NCBI GenBank assembly: GCA_018241665.1
Contig: JAFEDK010000019.1
Coordinates: 1 to 46,219 of the forward strand
Reading direction: 5' to 3'
Source of the DNA: Pseudomonadota bacterium
GTDB lineage: Bacteria > Pseudomonadota > Gammaproteobacteria > Burkholderiales > Rhodocyclaceae
Length of the DNA stretch: 46,219 bases
The notes below the pieces were generated by a model. The model was given only the letters and a program-made list of their open reading frames with translations, was not told where the DNA came from and made no database searches. How positions within the stretch are numbered: position 1 is the first letter of the stretch; the number at the start of each line of letters is the position of its first letter. Made by a program: the position numbers and the translations under genes. This document shows, piece after piece, positions 7,056 through 45,828 of this stretch.

Positions 7056-7105
7056 GAGCGAGCCAATCCCTTATCTTTCCTCCATCCCCCTCGAGGAAAT
7101 GTTTC

Positions 7106-7136
7106 GGGCGCCCCTTGGGGCGCCCGCTTTTTTTTT
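7106..7136 (+). terminator. Rho-independent terminator of actP
   Basis: A GC-only stem (GGGCGCCCC pairing with GGGGCGCCC, sharing a TT loop) is followed by nine T residues on the plus strand, about 50 bp after the actP stop. Confidence 0.93.
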
Positions 7137-7170: not shown

Positions 7171-7206
7171 ATGCAAAAAGCCCAGCAAATGCTGGGCTTT
7201 TTGCAT
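7171..7206 (-). terminator. Terminator of the cold-shock gene (works on both strands)
   Basis: The stem ATGCAAAAAGCCCAGC pairs with GCTGGGCTTTTTGCAT around a short AAAT loop. Both strands end in a T-run, so it can end the cold-shock transcript from the right and any actP read-through from the left. Confidence 0.88.
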
Positions 7207-7246
7207 CGCAACCCCGCCGTGGCAGGATTGCTCCGTCAGGCCGGAA

Positions 7247-7453
7247 TTACTCGGCGGCGCGGATGTTGGCGGCCTGCTGACCCTTCGGGCCGGACACGAT
7301 GTCGAAGACAACGCGCTGACCTTCAGCCAGGGTCTTGAAGCCCTTGGACTGAATGGCGGAGAAGTGAGCGAACAGATCGTCGCCGCCACCTTCCGGGGTG
7401 ATGAAACCGAAGCCCTTAGCGTCGTTGAACCACTTCACGGTACCAGTTGCCAT
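7247..7453 (-). CDS. Cold-shock domain protein (CspA family)
   Basis: This 68-residue single cold-shock domain has the nucleic-acid binding motifs KGFGFI (RNP1, residues 13-18) and DLFAHF (RNP2, about residues 26-31). It binds single-stranded RNA and DNA and usually melts mRNA structure in the cold or acts as a general RNA chaperone. The start ATGGCAACTGG is preceded by TTGAGGTTATTCAAA; an in-frame upstream codon adding MRLFK is less likely. The spacing to the next minus-strand gene leaves a leader of up to about 250 bases, as is common for csp genes, although cold inducibility cannot be read from sequence. Confidence 0.96.
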
Positions 7454-7640
7454 TTTGAATAACCTCAAATAAAAAATTACGGAGTTGCCCCGAGGGCAGG
7501 GCGAAGCTCAAGACGGCGGGGTGATGAAGGGAAGACAACCGCAGGACTGCGGATACTGAACCAGACAACAACAACACTACTTCTTGAAGATCGCAAGGCC
7601 GCACTGTGCACTGAAACCAGCCCCAACGCAAACACTATTT
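7454..7640 (-). promoter_or_regulatory. Probable 5' leader of the cold-shock gene
   Basis: No coding frame of convincing composition is present here. On the minus strand the segment holds a perfect hairpin at 7539-7552 (CCGCAG/CTGCGG) and an A/T-rich stretch right before the ribosome site (TAATTTTTTATTTGAGG). A structured leader is usual for cspA-type mRNAs. I could not locate a convincing -35/-10 pair, so the transcript start is unknown. Confidence 0.35.
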
Positions 7641-13703: not shown

Positions 13704-14930
13704 TCAGCCGCGCAGTTCGATGCGTGCTACCTGGTGCACGCCCATCACCTGCATCAGGGCTGCCACCATCGAGTTGACGCTCTTCAGGACCACCAGCCGC
13801 CCCTGGGCATGCAGCTGCGAGATCACGTTGAACAGCGTGCCGGCGGACACGAAGTCCATGCGGCGCAGGCGGCTACAGTCCACATCCACCTTGTTGCGGT
13901 TGTGGGCGAAGCTGGAGATCTTGCGCAGGATGTCGGCATTGGGACCGGTCACCTCACCCTCCAGCACATAGGTATCGCTCATCTCGACGGCCAGGGAGTC
14001 GGCCTCGATCTGGCTGTCGGTCACCGCTGGCGGCGGCTCCCAGGACGGTGGCGACTCCTCGAAGGTCATCGCGTATTCGAGGGCCTGCTCCTCGAAGCGC
14101 TCCTGCTGGTCGGTGTATTGCAGGATCTCTAGGAACAACAGCCAGATGGTCTGGTTCTCGCGCTTGCCGCTCTTCACCATGCCACCCAGCACGCTCGCCA
14201 GATGTGGCGCACCGAGCAGGGACAGCTTGATCTTGGCCCGGCGCAGCCCGCGGACGGCACGCAGCAGCAGCTCCGCGCCGGCATTGTCGACGCCGCGCAG
14301 GCGGGTCAGGTCGATACGCAGCGCACCGGTGCGCATGCCGATCTGGATCAGCTGGGCAAACTGGGCTGCGGCCTGTGAACCCAGCACGCCGGACAGGTTG
14401 ACCGTCTGGGCCTTGGCTTCGCTACCCCGCGAGGCCTGCAGGGAGAGATCCTGCCAGGCGGGCGGCGAGCGTTCGAATTCGGTGGCAAAAGTGAGGCTCC
14501 GGGTCTCGAAACACTCTTTCTGGCCGGTCAGGCGGAGCAGGTCGAGCAGCATGCCCCACAGCACAAAGCGGGCATCCCCCGGGATCGTCGTATCAAGCGC
14601 GTGCTCCAGTACCGAGCGTGCGTCCTCGTAGCCGCCATTGGCGTAGAGGATGGCCGCCTCCTCGGCCGACGGGGACATCTCCTCGACGCCTTCTTCGATA
14701 TGCACCTTGTCGGCACACTGGGCCAGCACCCGGTTGAGGTCGCCGCCGGCGACGGTGAACTCAAGGGACGAGGATTCGGTACGGGGCCCCGGCGAGCGGG
14801 GTGTGGAAGGGCGCGGGGCCGTGGTCGGCGGCGGCGGTGTCGATGGCGCAGCGGATCCCGTCGAAGCCCGGGAACGGGGTGCAGGACTTCCGGCAGGTAC
14901 AGGCTTCTTGCCGAAAAACGGTAGCACCAC
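13704..14930 (-). CDS. Protein with two STAS-like domains and an internal duplication
   Basis: This protein of about 408 residues has a Pro/Ser/Thr-rich linker near the N-terminus, a helical segment, a first STAS-like domain (about residues 174-254), a second helical segment and a C-terminal STAS domain (about 314-407; [20 protein letters not shown]). A motif is repeated in front of or between them: [20 protein letters not shown] (about 140-159) and [20 protein letters not shown] (about 279-298). STAS domains act as anti-anti-sigma switches or in transport regulation. GTG 14930 has GGAGG eight bases upstream; TTG 14963 is an alternative 11 codons earlier with a weaker site. It is encoded just upstream of hslV. 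Function unknown. Confidence 0.8.
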
Positions 14931-27826: not shown

Positions 27827-27902
27827 GGGTCGGTAGCTCAGTCGGTAGAGCAGCGGACTTTTAATCCGTTGGTCGCGAGTTCGAATCTCGCCCGACCCAC
27901 CA
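27827..27902 (+). tRNA. tRNA-Lys(UUU)
   Basis: A 76-base cloverleaf with acceptor stem GGGTCGG/CCGACCC, T-loop GTTCGAATC, encoded CCA end and anticodon TTT at 27860-27862 in loop CTTTTAA. Confidence 0.98.
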
Positions 27903-27945: not shown

Positions 27946-28021
27946 GGGTTGTTAGCTCAGTTGGTAGAGCAGCGGACTCTTAATCCGTAGGTCGAGTGTT
28001 CGAGTCACTCACAACCCACCA
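27946..28021 (+). tRNA. tRNA-Lys(CUU)
   Basis: A 76-base cloverleaf with acceptor stem GGGTTGT/ACAACCC, T-loop GTTCGAGTC, encoded CCA and anticodon CTT at 27979-27981. It is 43 bp after the first tRNA-Lys and probably on the same transcript. The anticodon-arm half is nearly identical between the two, suggesting duplication and divergence. Confidence 0.98.
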
Positions 28022-28036
28022 GAACACACGCAGAAA

Positions 28037-28061
28037 GCCAATCCTTCGGGGTTGGCTTTTT
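28037..28061 (+). terminator. Terminator of the tRNA-Lys transcript
   Basis: GCCAATCC and GGGTTGGC pair around a TTCG tetraloop, followed by TTTTT. Outer bases (ACGCAGAAA / TTTTCTGCGT) extend the stem. It starts 15 bp after the second tRNA. Confidence 0.9.
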
Positions 28062-28244
28062 GCTTTTCTGCGTCAGGACAACCCCCGAAGCCTGCAAACG
28101 TTCCCGCAGGCGCTCCTGCCGCGAATCCCCGGGCAAGGCCCCGCGAGCCTGCCTATTCACACCTCGGAGGCCGGCGCAAGTGGCAGGCACGGCAAGTAAG
28201 GCGTGGATCAATACCCCGCAGCTCACAGCCCGGACGCAAAAATG

Positions 28245-28273
28245 TTGCAATGCACAACGGAATTGCTCTATGC
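28245..28273 (+). promoter_or_regulatory. Candidate promoter for an orphan small RNA
   Basis: TTGCAA (28245-28250) and TATGCT (28268-28273) are separated by exactly 17 bases, with no gene start downstream until infA at 28885. Each hexamer matches consensus at four of six positions. Confidence 0.45.
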
Positions 28274-28279
28274 TTGGCC

Positions 28280-28349
28280 CGTCTCCTCCACCCTCTCCTC
28301 CATTGGTGTGGATTTCAACCCGAGCGGCCCCGGCCCCTCGGGTTTTCTT
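28280..28349 (+). ncRNA. Candidate C-rich small RNA with anti-Shine-Dalgarno motifs
   Basis: The predicted transcript of about 65-70 bases starts near 28280 and contains TCTCCTCC twice (28281-28288 and 28293-28300). A stem of TCCACC (28286-28291) with GGTGTGGA (28304-28311, two-base bulge) leaves the second copy in a 12-base loop. It ends in an intrinsic terminator, AACCCGAG (28316-28323) with CTCGGGTT (28336-28343), followed by TTTTCTTT. No plausible ORF lies inside. The form recalls proteobacterial sRNAs that show CU-rich loops to ribosome-binding sites, but this one is predicted only from sequence. Confidence 0.5.
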
Positions 28350-28449
28350 TCGGCGTCAAGCCGCCACGGCTCCACCGCACAAATGCGGAAAAGCAAAACA
28401 TAACAACGACTTATCTCACATAAAAAAGACCCGTTGCGGCCAGAAGGTC

Positions 28450-28478
28450 TTGCCATGCATCCCCTGCGGGACTATCAT
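28450..28478 (+). promoter_or_regulatory. Candidate infA promoter
   Basis: TTGCCA (28450-28455), a 17-base spacer and TATCAT (28473-28478). A start near 28485 would give infA a leader of about 400 bases. Confidence 0.5.
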
Positions 28479-28484
28479 ACTTGG

Positions 28485-28884
28485 AGGTTTTGAAGTTTCG
28501 GTGAGTTGCCTTTGCCGGTCATTGCCCAGGTCGACGGACTTACTTGATCCATCGGTCGAGCGCACCAGTCGCTCAACGACCGCTCAGAATTTCAATGACT
28601 TGGGCCACCCTCGAGGTGGCCCAAGGCTTTCAGGCTCAGCCCGTCCATTGCCGATCCGGCTTGCGTGCGAGTTACCGGGGAGCCTGACAGCAACGCACCA
28701 CTCATCTTCGCCTGCGACGCCACGCGCAGGCGGCTTATCCGCCGGCCCGCCAATCTACGCGCCGACATTCAATCGCCACTGCCCTTCGAGGTCCTGGCAG
28801 AACTTGGCCCACCAAGGTGGTGGCGGGCCCCGGCCGACGCGCCCCATCCCGGGATGCTGCACGGCCACCACATGGAGCATGTAC
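28485..28884 (+). promoter_or_regulatory. Long structured 5' region of infA
   Basis: This is about 400 bp without a credible gene. It holds a perfect 10-bp hairpin at 28600-28624 (TTGGGCCACC/GGTGGCCCAA around CTCGA) followed by only three T, so it is more likely a leader element than a terminator. The segment GGCCACC recurs at 28863-28869, just before the ribosome site TGGAG, and could compete for the same GGTGGCC partner. Other parts look unremarkable. An in-frame extension of infA through this region has no protein-like character. Confidence 0.4.
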
Positions 28885-29148
28885 ATGGCCAAAGAAGAAC
28901 TCATCGAAATGCACGGTAAGGTTACCGAAGTTCTCCCTGACGGGCGTTATCGCGTCACCCTCGACAACGAGCACAACCTGATCGCCTACGCTGGCGGCAA
29001 GCTGAAGAAGAACCACATCCGCATCATCGCCGGTGACGAAGTCACCCTCGAAATGTCCCCCTATGATCTGAGCAAGGGGCGCATCACCTTCCGCCACCTG
29101 CCGCCCAAGACCGGCAACATGGCACCGCCGCCGGCTCGTCGCTACTGA
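28885..29148 (+). CDS. infA: Translation initiation factor IF-1
   Basis: This 87-residue S1-like OB-fold protein begins [20 protein letters not shown] and contains [20 protein letters not shown], the core of IF-1, which occupies the A site of the 30S subunit with IF-2 and IF-3. At 87 residues it is longer than the 72 of E. coli because of a tail ending APPPARRY, like the stand-alone betaproteobacterial IF-1 paralogue. It is a single-gene unit here, not part of a ribosomal protein operon. TGGAG lies eight bases before the ATG. Confidence 0.96.
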
Positions 29149-30322: not shown

Positions 30323-31225
30323 ATGAACAAGACTCTCTCCACAGCAAGCAAGCTCATCCTCGCCGGCGGCCTCCTGTGTGTTTCCGCCCAAGCCAGCGCT
30401 CTGCGATCCTGCAACACGGCCGACGTCAAGATCACCAGCGTCAGCATGTATTCAGACACGACGAGCAGCGCCACCCTGCAAACCATCTACTCCGGCAGCC
30501 AGGCTGCAGCCGACTGTGCCGGCGCCTTCGCCGGCAACGACGAGTTCGCCCCCACCACCAACCTTGGCTACGCCGGTGATGGCTTGCTGAACGGTGGCGT
30601 CCAGAACGGAAAGAATGGTGGCACGCTCTTCCCGGGCGGCGCCTTCATCACGCCCCAATACCCGCTGCAGGACCTGGACAAGGACGGCCAGGCCACCGAC
30701 CCGGGCTGGATCATGCTCGGGAAGTATCAGGAACTCAGCAAGAACGGCCCCTGGGCCTTCGTTCCCAATACCATCGATGGCCACAGCGATATCGTCACCT
30801 CCTCCTTCTTTACTGCCACGATCAGCACATCCGGCAAAGGGACTTGGGCCTTCACGCCCGACGCTACCGTCGCCCAACGCACCAGCACCATCCTCGGCCG
30901 CAACTACTTCGACCAGTTCGCACTGGTGTTCAAGGCCGGCGAGTCCTTCTCGGTTTATGACTTCACCCCCGATCTGTTCAACATGGCCCCGCCGGACGTG
31001 GATGATCCGGTCATGAACTGGTTCGGCACCTACGACGTCAGCGGCACCCTGCGCGCAGGCAAGGATGACAAGAACCCGGCTGGCCTGTCGCACATCAGCC
31101 TGTGGGTGCGCGACCCGGCCGCGAGCGTGCAAACGACCACCACCCAGGTTCCGGAACCCAGCACCCTGGCCCTGCTGGGCCTGTCGGCCGCAGCGCTGAT
31201 CAGGACACGCCGCAAGAGCGCCTGA
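30323..31225 (+). CDS. PEP-CTERM sorting domain protein
   Basis: This 300-residue exported protein has a signal peptide (ending SAQASA-LRS) and a C-terminal PEP-CTERM tail: VPEPSTLALLGLSAAALI then RTRRKSA. The tail directs processing by exosortase (EpsH/XrtA), usually encoded in an exopolysaccharide locus elsewhere. The middle is Gly/Asn/Thr-rich, with two cysteines near the N-terminus (RSCNT, AADCAG) and no recognised catalytic motif. It is a lone gene with its own terminator, typical for this scattered family. A role in biofilm or floc surface is inferred from the family. Confidence 0.9.
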   Translation: MNKTLSTASKLILAGGLLCVSAQASALRSCNTADVKITSVSMYSDTTSSATLQTIYSGSQAAADCAGAFAGNDEFAPTTNLGYAGDGLLNGGVQNGKNGGTLFPGGAFITPQYPLQDLDKDGQATDPGWIMLGKYQELSKNGPWAFVPNTIDGHSDIVTSSFFTATISTSGKGTWAFTPDATVAQRTSTILGRNYFDQFALVFKAGESFSVYDFTPDLFNMAPPDVDDPVMNWFGTYDVSGTLRAGKDDKNPAGLSHISLWVRDPAASVQTTTTQVPEPSTLALLGLSAAALIRTRRKSA

Positions 31226-32146: not shown

Positions 32147-33694
32147 TCAGGGACAGGTCTGCATGGTCGGCCGCTTGGATTTTGTCACCGCCGTGTTCTT
32201 GGCCAATGAGAAGTAAGGATCACAGGCCGGTGCCGACGTCGCGGTACGCACCTCGACGACACCGGACGAAGCCGGCCCACCACCGCTGAACACCGCACTG
32301 ACCCGGTAACGATAGGTACTATCCGGGCCCAGAGCGCCATCCACAAAACTCGTGCGGGACGCCGGGAGCATCGCCACATCGGACTCTGCTGCGCCCGCTG
32401 TCGCCCGCAGCACACGGTAGGCAGTTGCCGCCGGCACCGGTGTCCACACCAGCGCCACCTGGCTGGCACTGCGATCCACCACCTGCAACGCCGGCATGCT
32501 GACCGCGGAGGCTACAGCCTCCATCGGCACCGCACGGGCGGCCAGCCTCGTCGCCATCCGCCACACCGCGCCGATCTGCGCGCCGCCCTTCTGGGCATAG
32601 CGGCCAGCGCTGGTGTCGTACAGGAAATCGTTGTAACCCCACCAATCCCAGCATCCCATGGGGTTCGTCGGTACGGACGATGAGGCCGGCGTGGTGATCG
32701 TGGCACGTGCCTGCGGGTACAGCACCACGATGCGGTTCTTGTCCGCCCATTCGTTGAAGCCGGCGCCTGCCGCAAACTGGTTGCCGATCGACCCCGCATC
32801 CTGCATGCAGCCATGGAAGGCAATGTGCAGGCGGCAGGGCTCGCCGGCCTTGCAGGCCTGCGGCACATAGACGTAGCCGGTATCCCCCATCGCCAGGCGG
32901 ATCGGCAGCACCGGCGCGCCCTGGCGGTCCTTCGTGAAGGGCTGCTGTTCGAAGGTCTCGAGGCTGCTGCCGAGTTGGGCCGTCACAACGCGTTGCAACG
33001 GACCGTAGAAGAGTTGCAGCGCCGCACCGGCCGCATCATAGAGCCCGCTGGCCGCAGGCTTGTCGGCACAGGCATTGATGAACTTCCCGCCGGTCTGCGC
33101 ACAGGGATTGCAGGATCCACTCGACGCATCGGCACAGGCAGCGGAAATCTGCGCGTGGCCCGCATTGAGGTCGTCCTTGTAGAAAACCTGGCTGGCTGGC
33201 GTGAAACCCTGATACCAATCACGCAATGCATCGTTGGCCGGCTTCTTGACGATGCCGTCGTTGTAGCCGTGAAACAGCCACACGCTCTGCCCGGCCAAGC
33301 CGTCCACTGGATCGATCAAGCCCCGCGCCGACCAGGCACGCGCCGCCGCCTGCATCTGTGCCAAGGTATCGGCGGTAATCGGTGTCACGCCGTAGTCCGG
33401 ATCGCCCTGCATGCAGCGCCGGATCGCCCGACTCACCCCGGCACCACCCAAGGCGTCCTGCAGCGCACAGAAGTACGGCCCGCCAGCCGTGGCCGCCACG
33501 CCTTTCACGTCCGCCGAATGGGCAACCCCCATCTGCACCGCCATGAAGGCCCCCGACGAAATGCCGGACACGGTGGTCTGCTTGAGATCGATGTTCAATT
33601 CAGGCAGCTCCGCGGCCTGCAATGCGGGCGTGATCCCCAGCAGGACGACCAGACGGAGTGCCGCCGAGCACGATGACAGGGAAACGAAATTCAT
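32147..33694 (-). CDS. Extracellular PHB depolymerase, type II catalytic domain with fibronectin III module
   Basis: This 515-residue protein has a signal peptide (ending PALQAAELP), a lipase box GISSG with Ser46 near the N-terminus, a likely catalytic Asp in FHGYNDG and His in NAGHAQIS, and the oxyanion-hole histidine later, in HIAFHGCMQ. This order (lipase box before the oxyanion motif) marks type II PHB depolymerases. A fibronectin III-like domain follows (about residues 395-490: VDRSASQVALVWTPVPAATA). The cysteine-rich catalytic part fits a secreted enzyme. It should hydrolyse external polyhydroxybutyrate. No separate C-terminal substrate-binding domain is obvious beyond the last 25 residues. 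Confidence 0.85.
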   Translation of the reverse strand: MNFVSLSSCSAALRLVVLLGITPALQAAELPELNIDLKQTTVSGISSGAFMAVQMGVAHSADVKGVAATAGGPYFCALQDALGGAGVSRAIRRCMQGDPDYGVTPITADTLAQMQAAARAWSARGLIDPVDGLAGQSVWLFHGYNDGIVKKPANDALRDWYQGFTPASQVFYKDDLNAGHAQISAACADASSGSCNPCAQTGGKFINACADKPAASGLYDAAGAALQLFYGPLQRVVTAQLGSSLETFEQQPFTKDRQGAPVLPIRLAMGDTGYVYVPQACKAGEPCRLHIAFHGCMQDAGSIGNQFAAGAGFNEWADKNRIVVLYPQARATITTPASSSVPTNPMGCWDWWGYNDFLYDTSAGRYAQKGGAQIGAVWRMATRLAARAVPMEAVASAVSMPALQVVDRSASQVALVWTPVPAATAYRVLRATAGAAESDVAMLPASRTSFVDGALGPDSTYRYRVSAVFSGGGPASSGVVEVRTATSAPACDPYFSLAKNTAVTKSKRPTMQTCP

Positions 33695-37777: not shown

Positions 37778-38092
37778 ATGCACCAGGTCATCGTCGTGTT
37801 GCGGGCCGACCGGGAATATGAATTCACCGTGCACGCCGACGAAATCGCCGGGCTCACCGACGAAGCTGCGCGGGCCTGGCTGCTCGCGGAGTTCGAAGCG
37901 CTGGAATGCACGCCCAGCAATCCGATGGGCAAGGTGCTGATCCTCGACGTGATCCTCAACGTCGCCAAGTACGGCGGCGAGGCCCGCTTTGCCCACGGGG
38001 GGGACTGGGCCAGGCGCTTTGCGGCCTGTGTCGGGGTGGCCCTCGACCGGCGGGCCGTCAGGGTGGACGTGCCGGCCTTCGTGGTCGGCTGA
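37778..38092 (+). CDS. Uncharacterised 104-residue cytoplasmic protein
   Basis: The ATG has a strong AGGAGG ribosome site seven bases upstream, and the reading frame has coding-like composition. The protein begins MHQVIVVLRADREYEFTV and has a mixed alpha/beta look with one Cys in LECTPSNPMGK and one in FAACVGVAL; no signal or membrane segment is seen. I do not recognise the family. It is divergent from the AmpG-like gene and convergent with the GGDEF gene, so it is a single-gene unit. Confidence 0.75.
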   Translation: MHQVIVVLRADREYEFTVHADEIAGLTDEAARAWLLAEFEALECTPSNPMGKVLILDVILNVAKYGGEARFAHGGDWARRFAACVGVALDRRAVRVDVPAFVVG

Positions 38093-45731: not shown

Positions 45732-45773
45732 AACGGCGCGGCAAACCCGGCTGGAAGGTTTGCGAGCGCCGTT
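45732..45773 (-). terminator. Expression-platform hairpin of the metH leader
   Basis: On the minus strand AACGGCGC (45773-45766) and GCAAACC (45763-45757) pair with GGTTTGC (45747-45741) and GCGCCGTT (45739-45732), making about 15 bp with a 9-base loop. Its 5' strand includes the riboswitch pseudoknot segment, so the two structures exclude each other. The T-tract (CTTTTG) is short, so termination strength is uncertain. Confidence 0.6.
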
Positions 45774-45828
45774 GATGATTGCCGAGCCTGGCCCACGGTT
45801 TTCGCAGGTCGCAACGCTCCTCGGCAAG
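45764..45828 (-). promoter_or_regulatory. S-adenosylhomocysteine (SAH) riboswitch
   Basis: The minus strand reads GCCGAGGAGCGTTGCGACC, then GTGGGCCAGGCTCGGC, then AACGGCGCTC. This matches the known SAH aptamer in order: P1 strand with GAGGAGCG, the conserved GCCAGGCTCG, and the downstream pseudoknot strand pairing GAGCG with CGCTC. Such aptamers precede metH or ahcY genes in beta- and gammaproteobacteria and turn expression on when SAH is high. It starts at the predicted transcript start, about 93-157 bases before metH. Confidence 0.92.

Follow-up and report, generated by a model that had tools for sequence, protein, structure and literature searches.

A putative PhaR-type operator at the promoter of a predicted RF02278-like anti-Shine-Dalgarno RNA in the Rhodocyclaceae

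The question raised by the DNA considered here, a stretch of 46,219 nucleotides from a bacterium of the Rhodocyclaceae (contig JAFEDK010000019.1; the whole stretch is called the window), is what is encoded between a pair of tRNA-Lys genes and infA, and when it would be expressed. A reading of the letters alone (the sequence-only reading) had placed there an orphan small RNA with two copies of the anti-Shine-Dalgarno motif TCTCCTCC and a terminator. Taken as a whole, the locus is probably best explained by a trans-acting RNA homologous to the Rfam family RF02278, which would act by anti-Shine-Dalgarno pairing and whose promoter would be repressed by PhaR, a regulator tied to the storage of polyhydroxybutyrate (PHB). 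The RNA family and the anti-Shine-Dalgarno mechanism are known, while the PhaR-type operator predicted at the promoters is new. The features of the locus are the following.

28280-28351, + strand: predicted RF02278-like small RNA, from a cmscan match and the z-score of its fold; 72 nt, extent predicted
28243-28257, + strand: PhaR-type operator TGTTGCAATGCACAA, covering the -35; core TGCAATGCA at 28246-28254
28245-28250, + strand: -35 hexamer TTGCAA, read off the sequence; similar position in relatives
28269-28274, + strand: -10 hexamer TATGCT, read off the sequence; 6/6 columns identical in four syntenic genomes
28282-28289, + strand: first anti-Shine-Dalgarno motif TCTCCTCC; 5' part unpaired
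28294-28301, + strand: second anti-Shine-Dalgarno motif TCTCCTCC; wholly in the loop of hairpin 1
28287-28312, + strand: hairpin 1 with CU-rich loop, predicted fold
28317-28350, + strand: intrinsic terminator, stem 28317-28344 then a T-rich tail, predicted fold
27827-27902 and 27946-28021: tRNA-Lys pair, upstream of the small RNA
28030-28063: terminator-like site, before the small RNA
about 28885-29148: infA, downstream of the small RNA; TIGR00008 match

With its own promoter and terminator, the segment 28280-28351 looks like a real small-RNA gene. The two motif copies and the terminator bear out the sequence-only reading, as does the position of the second motif in a hairpin loop; the first motif, placed by that reading in an open 5' end, is unpaired in its 5' part, while its last three bases (28287-28289) are paired in the predicted stem. 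The spacer between TTGCAA and TATGCT is 18 bp and not 17 as claimed, and the promoter is absent from the list of the promoter scanner because its 8 of 12 consensus matches fall below the threshold of 9. The claim that the region holds no open reading frame (ORF) is right in that no ORF there has support as a gene, but mechanically called ORFs do span it, including a 362-aa frame running into infA. For the RNA (28280-28352) the predicted folding energy is -26.9 kcal/mol (z = -4.1), a value matched by one of 200 shuffled sequences. Searched on both strands, the window contains TCTCCTCC only at these two places; since 1.85 matches are expected by chance in 46 kb, it is the 12-nt distance between them that is unusual. 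Two matches are thus what a C/U-rich spacer that folds by chance could offer, yet this origin is almost certainly wrong in view of the match to a curated family (E = 1.5e-8), the z-score of the fold and a conserved footprint, and it is regarded as refuted by the conservation.

That conservation, on which the sequence-only reading had staked its proposal, is found in relatives between the tRNA-Lys pair and infA. Across the genome of the window and three others with the order queC - tRNA-Lys - tRNA-Lys - RNA - infA, the RNA body has 37/39 identical columns, the terminator 25/32 and the operator 13/15, as against 18/126 and 5/38 in the upstream parts and 3/11 in the spacer, with intermediate conservation downstream of the RNA (43/100). 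The operator, the -10 and the RNA form islands of identity in comparison to the upstream flank and the spacer. The location between the tRNA-Lys pair and infA, whose leader is itself conserved, could also suit a region belonging to a neighbouring transcript, as the 3' end of the tRNA-Lys operon or part of the infA leader, and in one other genome (L021) a copy again stands beside a tRNA-Lys pair. However, terminators lie on both sides, the terminator-like site before the RNA and its own after it, and 26 of 30 related loci have neither queC nor infA within about 1.5 kb on each side; a cis leader or a part of the tRNA transcript is therefore very improbable and was rejected. The infA leader (28451-28884, about 430 nt) has 302 of 434 columns identical (about 70%) in the four syntenic genomes, and is partly kept in a Zoogloea metagenome-assembled genome (76% over 186 nt), the only match among the best 80 named infA loci listed. 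This leader has no Rfam match at the gathering threshold, and a structured infA leader is possible.

At default thresholds, Rfam gave no match at the small-RNA locus. A permissive search of 28150-28500 gave RF02278 (Betaproteobacteria_toxic_sRNA) at 46.9 bits (E 1.5e-8) over model positions 1-64 of 64, and the full length of the family can be followed through the 5' UGUCUCCUCCA, the CU-rich loop, GUGGAUU and the terminator, with C instead of U as the first base. Judged by sequence and predicted fold, the window RNA is a sub-threshold, divergent homologue of RF02278 and not a curated member. In keeping with the multi-copy nature of the family, the genome holds four matches at E <= 1e-6. The RNA is not an orphan, because the family is known and three sibling copies in the same genome lie above the Rfam cut-off (65, 64.9 and 59.4 bits). 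The interpretation as an anti-Shine-Dalgarno RNA with a C-rich loop was the right one, and agrees with a mechanism already proposed, and partly tested, for RF02278. ErsA (RF01719, 16.8 bits) was tried as an alternative family and rejected.

Among 120 genomes sampled from the order, 56 have an RF02278 match at E <= 1e-6 and 49 have one over the cut-off; a class-wide sample of 104 genomes, too broad for this comparison, has 8 and 1, respectively, and a search of a plasmid collection for RF02278 copies gave no match. The first motif is exactly TCTCCTCC in 80 of the 93 order-wide matches, and CCTCC follows it in 73 of 93. It is also present in 34/34 aligned copies, though these were chosen by a pattern containing the motif. 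At the position of the second motif most close relatives carry CTCCTCC, and the group of the window is 1-3 bases longer. In the covariation check suggested by the sequence-only reading, the pairs of hairpin 1 are unchanged in 34/34 aligned copies and, because they do not vary, provide no evidence of covariation. The terminator stem is retained in the close copies, mostly with identical sequence, and one pair passes from A-U to G-C in 4/34. Two RF02278-like copies lie about 1.4 kb apart on the same strand in four same-genus genomes (G003:C49, G005:C67, G007:C248 and G009:C76; L251, L253, L258 and L259), and the copy of L021 (G023:C7) lies about 0.1 kb upstream of its tRNA-Lys pair, on the opposite side from the arrangement in the window. 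A weak RF02278-like match also occurs in the window at 7074-7133 (+), with 25.9 bits (E 0.011 for the genome); matches at E <= 1 were likewise obtained in 11 of 14 control genomes.

The best indication of when the RNA would be expressed comes from the operator, a palindrome fixed at the -35 that was seen on listing the promoters of relatives and that the sequence-only reading had missed. Of the 17 positions of the PhaR consensus YTKNTGCRNYGCANMAR, the candidate operator fits the inner 15 and departs from it at the two outer ones; this consensus was deduced for phaP1 and phaP3 of Ralstonia eutropha, where three mismatches were allowed (PMC12849132). It also differs by one mismatch from the motif TG[N]TGC[N]3GCAA of Herbaspirillum PhbF, for which a DNase footprint is reported at the phbF promoter (PMC3206438). 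The genome encodes both PhaR (TIGR01848, 169 bits) and PHB genes, phaR being adjacent to genes for an acetoacetyl-CoA reductase and a polyhydroxyalkanoate (PHA) synthase, the latter truncated at the edge of the locus.

A pattern drawn partly from small-RNA promoters, TNNTGCRHYGCANMA, has 56 matches at 41 distinct sites in this genome, compared with one match for the reversed pattern. Its sites precede three phasin genes, two of which have two sites each (about 32 and 67, 35 and 94, and 135 bp from the called starts), and one lies 83 bp before a PhaM-family gene; gene calls around pattern sites, and for the in-window duplexes below, came from crude scripts and not from a gene finder. Among the four RF02278 copies of the genome, the exact box is at the -35 in two, that of the window and that on C15, and in the C12 copy a near-box, TTGTGCCGCGGCGCACAA, immediately precedes the apparent -35. 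The only pattern site within the window is the one at the small RNA. About 4 kb from the small RNA, at 32147-33694 (-), lies a gene for an extracellular short-chain-length PHA depolymerase (NF050059).

Similar arrangements recur in close relatives, where 82 similar places were found in 36 of 60 genomes and 78 could be read in register; the four others (one each from G018:C37, G029, G033 and G035) were not recognized by the script, whose pattern includes the first motif. The exact core occurs in 50 of the 78 copies within about 110-120 nt upstream. Relative to the start of the RNA it lies at -33 to -37 in 34 copies and at -84 to -112 in 17, where it seems to sit immediately before the -35 of a longer transcript. 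Considering only the genome of the window and those of the same genus, 21 of 23 have at least one boxed copy. A second palindrome, of the type TTAT-n-ATA, stands alone in 14 of the 78 copies, both signals occur in 6 and neither in 14. Since siblings have much the same RNA body and differ in their promoters, the family resembles a single effector connected to several signals. The TTAT-n-ATA palindrome starts at -59 or -60, an activator-like position, in 12 of 22 copies without a box at the -35 (for example G000:C18, L032; G016:C87, L262; G021:C70, L269), and G005, G007 and G009 each have two copies with both signals.

Across the order, all 93 RF02278 places at E <= 1e-6 in the 120 genomes were examined with the published core TGCRNYGCA, which was used because of the partial origin of TNNTGCRHYGCANMA in small-RNA promoters, and phaR was counted as absent where no TIGR01848 match reached E <= 1e-10. 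Within 100 nt upstream of the RNA, the exact core is found at 33/69 loci of genomes with phaR and at 0/24 loci of genomes without it, or in 25/39 and 0/17 genomes, respectively. The next 100-nt windows in genomes with phaR have 6/69, 6/69 and 2/69 upstream and 9/69, 1/69 and 2/69 downstream, and all six flanking windows in genomes without phaR hold a single match (1/23 at -300 to -201). Shuffles gave 0.25/69, and the reversed motif 0/69 in the promoter window. With one mismatch in TNNTGCRNYGCANNA over 120 nt, the counts rise to 49/69 loci with phaR and 2/24 without (33/39 and 2/17 genomes), the flanks in genomes with phaR giving 12/69, 7/69, 11/69 and 2/69; two mismatches in the full consensus give 38/69 and 2/24. 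At loci of genomes without phaR, another palindrome, of the type TTAGAnAATnCTAA with slight variants allowed, lies over the apparent -10 in 17/24 cases, as against 2/69 with phaR (for example L204, L214, L216 and L220), and may be the site of a regulator that replaced PhaR.

The palindrome could instead be the site of another regulator, or a by-product of a TTGC-rich -35, at the promoter of a real RF02278 RNA. TTGCAA, TTGCGC and similar -35 boxes are common in the promoter set, and the other palindromes carried by siblings suggest that other regulators probably act on the family. A TTGC-type -35 alone is nevertheless not the explanation, because TTGC occurs at -100 to -30 in 21/24 loci without phaR (44/69 with it), where there are no exact cores. 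Moreover, at loci with an apparent longer transcript (such as L202, L203, L223 and L228) the box stands clear of and upstream of the -35, and the pattern also marks phasin genes in the genome of the window. This alternative appears doubtful.

Several results weigh against repression by PhaR of an RF02278 homologue as the best explanation. The score of the window RNA is about 3 bits under the RF02278 gathering score of 50 bits. Within the genome, the C18 sibling lacks the box, crude-script ORF calls enclose 20 of the 41 pattern sites, including that of the window, where the frame is regarded as spurious, and most other annotated neighbours of pattern sites have no evident link to PHB, so the pattern alone is not specific. 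Order-wide, 36/69 loci of genomes with phaR have no exact core within 100 nt, and allowing three mismatches, the rule of PMC12849132, weakens the contrast to 51/69 and 7/24; by this rule the 120 nt immediately downstream give 24/69 and shuffles 6.6/69. The contrast between genomes with and without phaR also comes mostly from one clade, as a RecA tree supports about three independent losses of phaR; this tree has 54 of the 56 genomes, G229 (no recA match) and G211 (split recA) being left out and G037 being partial. In random pairings on the tree, 2.1 of 3 pairs agree with the contrast for the exact box and none opposes it (1.6 and 0.1 for the relaxed box), and because there are only three supported independent pairs, a sign test cannot reach p below 0.05. 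Some genomes may be called phaR-free on account of incompleteness, such as G238, which is 87% complete and whose same-genus relative G193 has phaR. Finally, the related RNA S17 of Bordetella pertussis is reported not to have impaired exponential growth of Escherichia coli (PMC11722255), for which reason the word 'toxic' in the family name may mislead.

A further difficulty concerns the sign of control, as R. eutropha PhaR represses phaP1 but is reported to activate phaP3 (PMC12849132), and PhaR might likewise activate the small RNA. The operator over the -35, however, is the arrangement expected to block RNA polymerase, whereas for phaP3 the predicted sites are inside the coding region and some 70 and 200 bp before the start (PMC12849132); activation is thus distinctly unlikely. 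Under repression, PhaR on the -35 would block transcription of the small RNA, and PHB granules would titrate PhaR off the operator, as published for R. eutropha phaP1 (PMC12849132). As granules would pull PhaR off the DNA, the small RNA would rise during carbon storage, as the phasin PhaP1 does in R. eutropha. The two UCUCCUCC stretches of the RNA mimic the 16S anti-Shine-Dalgarno sequence, and together with Hfq, for which the genome has a gene (hfq), the RNA would pair to GGAGGAGA-type ribosome sites and lower the translation of transport and catabolic genes.

Candidate targets were sought in the genome as GGAGGAGA-n1-10-ATG, a perfect 8-nt complement before ATG, which has 54 matches compared with 5 for the reversed pattern. 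From 30 candidate loci that were fetched, 20 proteins were annotated, including the malonate symporter MadM, a branched-chain amino acid ABC ATPase, a LamB porin and phenol hydroxylase, as well as two ferredoxin-type proteins, a CoA-transferase, a pterin-4a-carbinolamine dehydratase and a sigma-54 activator. A phage-sheath-like protein, a haem peroxidase and an RND-type pump fit less well. Eight checked duplexes of candidate targets range from -21.7 to -29.7 kcal/mol. No functional enrichment is claimed for this list, because the Shine-Dalgarno pattern used as a control had no more than 12 matches, which were left unannotated. The two targets that the sequence-only reading had proposed within the window fared unequally. 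The gene at 37778 is a poor candidate (-14.9 kcal/mol, compared with a median of -16.6 for 39 genes), and the minus-strand gene starting at 14930, described by that reading as a STAS gene, is a moderate one (-22.4 kcal/mol, fifth of 39); the first of the 39 is a spurious frame over the small RNA itself. With the operator overlooked, the orphan status and the spacer revised, and the RNA, its motifs and its conservation upheld, the earlier interpretation as a whole is partly supported.

A broader proposition, held with little more than even confidence, is that in PHB-storing betaproteobacteria the anti-Shine-Dalgarno RNAs of this family belong to the core of the PhaR regulon, granules releasing siblings that brake carbon and amino-acid uptake and catabolism, and that lineages without phaR kept the RNA under another regulator. 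If this is true, the stored polymer itself tells ribosomes to stop carbon import, a widespread translational brake is tied to carbon storage, and a small-RNA handle on PHB production becomes available. In genomes with phaR, 33/69 (exact) to 49/69 (one mismatch; 71%) copies have a PhaR-type box that covers the -35 or closely precedes it, which gives a named and testable regulator for the species concerned. Among the papers listed in literature searches, judged by title, abstract and passages, none joins RF02278 RNAs with PhaR, and a prior report is possible. Riboregulation in Cupriavidus was called undeciphered in a 2021 review.

Elsewhere in the window, the protein encoded at 30323-31225 (+) has no NCBIfam match at E <= 1e-5, and its C-terminal VPEPSTLALLGLSAAALIRTRR tail is presumably a PEP-CTERM sorting signal. 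A SAH (S-adenosylhomocysteine) riboswitch lies at 45757-45828 (-) and a cspA thermoregulator at 7172-7566 (-).

Among the closest known systems are the double-hairpin RNAs of Burkholderia cenocepacia. RF02278 has four copies there, with expression confirmed by Northern blot and inhibition of E. coli when carried on a vector (PMC4603805, citing Kimelman 2012); Herbaspirillum also has four (PMC7011215), and three to five per genome have been reported for Burkholderia. The B. cenocepacia RNAs ncS03, ncS05, ncS27 and ncS62 share with the window RNA the 5' GUCUCCUCCA, the hairpin with a CU-rich loop, GUGGAUU and the terminator, as well as several copies per genome and CU-rich regions predicted to cover ribosome sites (PMC5688073), while the window copy differs in lying 3 bits under the gathering score and in having a full second UCUCCUCC. 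Overexpression of ncS27 slows growth and its silencing speeds growth (PMC5688073), and it has been described as a brake on the use of several carbon sources (review PMC10987360). The regulator of the accumulation of these RNAs was stated in 2017 to be unknown, and a common upstream motif was reported for three of the four copies (PMC5688073); the main text of that paper does not mention PhaR, PHB or phasin, and that the motif is the PhaR box is a guess. Control by PhaR would fit the reported rise of the double-hairpin RNAs in glucose medium (PMC5688073).

S17 of B. pertussis has a near-identical 5' region and two single-stranded stretches complementary to ribosome sites. Transporters and a sigma-54 regulator, whose gene it directly represses, are among the targets reported for it, similar to some of the candidates here, and an unknown repressor was postulated for it. 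It differs in being cut by RNase E from a longer RNA and in being high in the Bvg+ mode (PMC11722255). Anti-hemB (RF02837) of Burkholderia shares a CU-rich loop and terminator, but at 19.7 bits against a gathering score of 49.5 it was rejected as the family of the window RNA. For the proposed control, the nearest parallel is MmgR of Sinorhizobium meliloti, and it is an analogy only: MmgR is alphaproteobacterial and is reported to lower phasins, whereas the window RNA would act on many ribosome sites, yet MmgR too is a small RNA tied to PHB storage and reported to be repressed by PhaR (AniA) (PMC12542648; PMC8401924).
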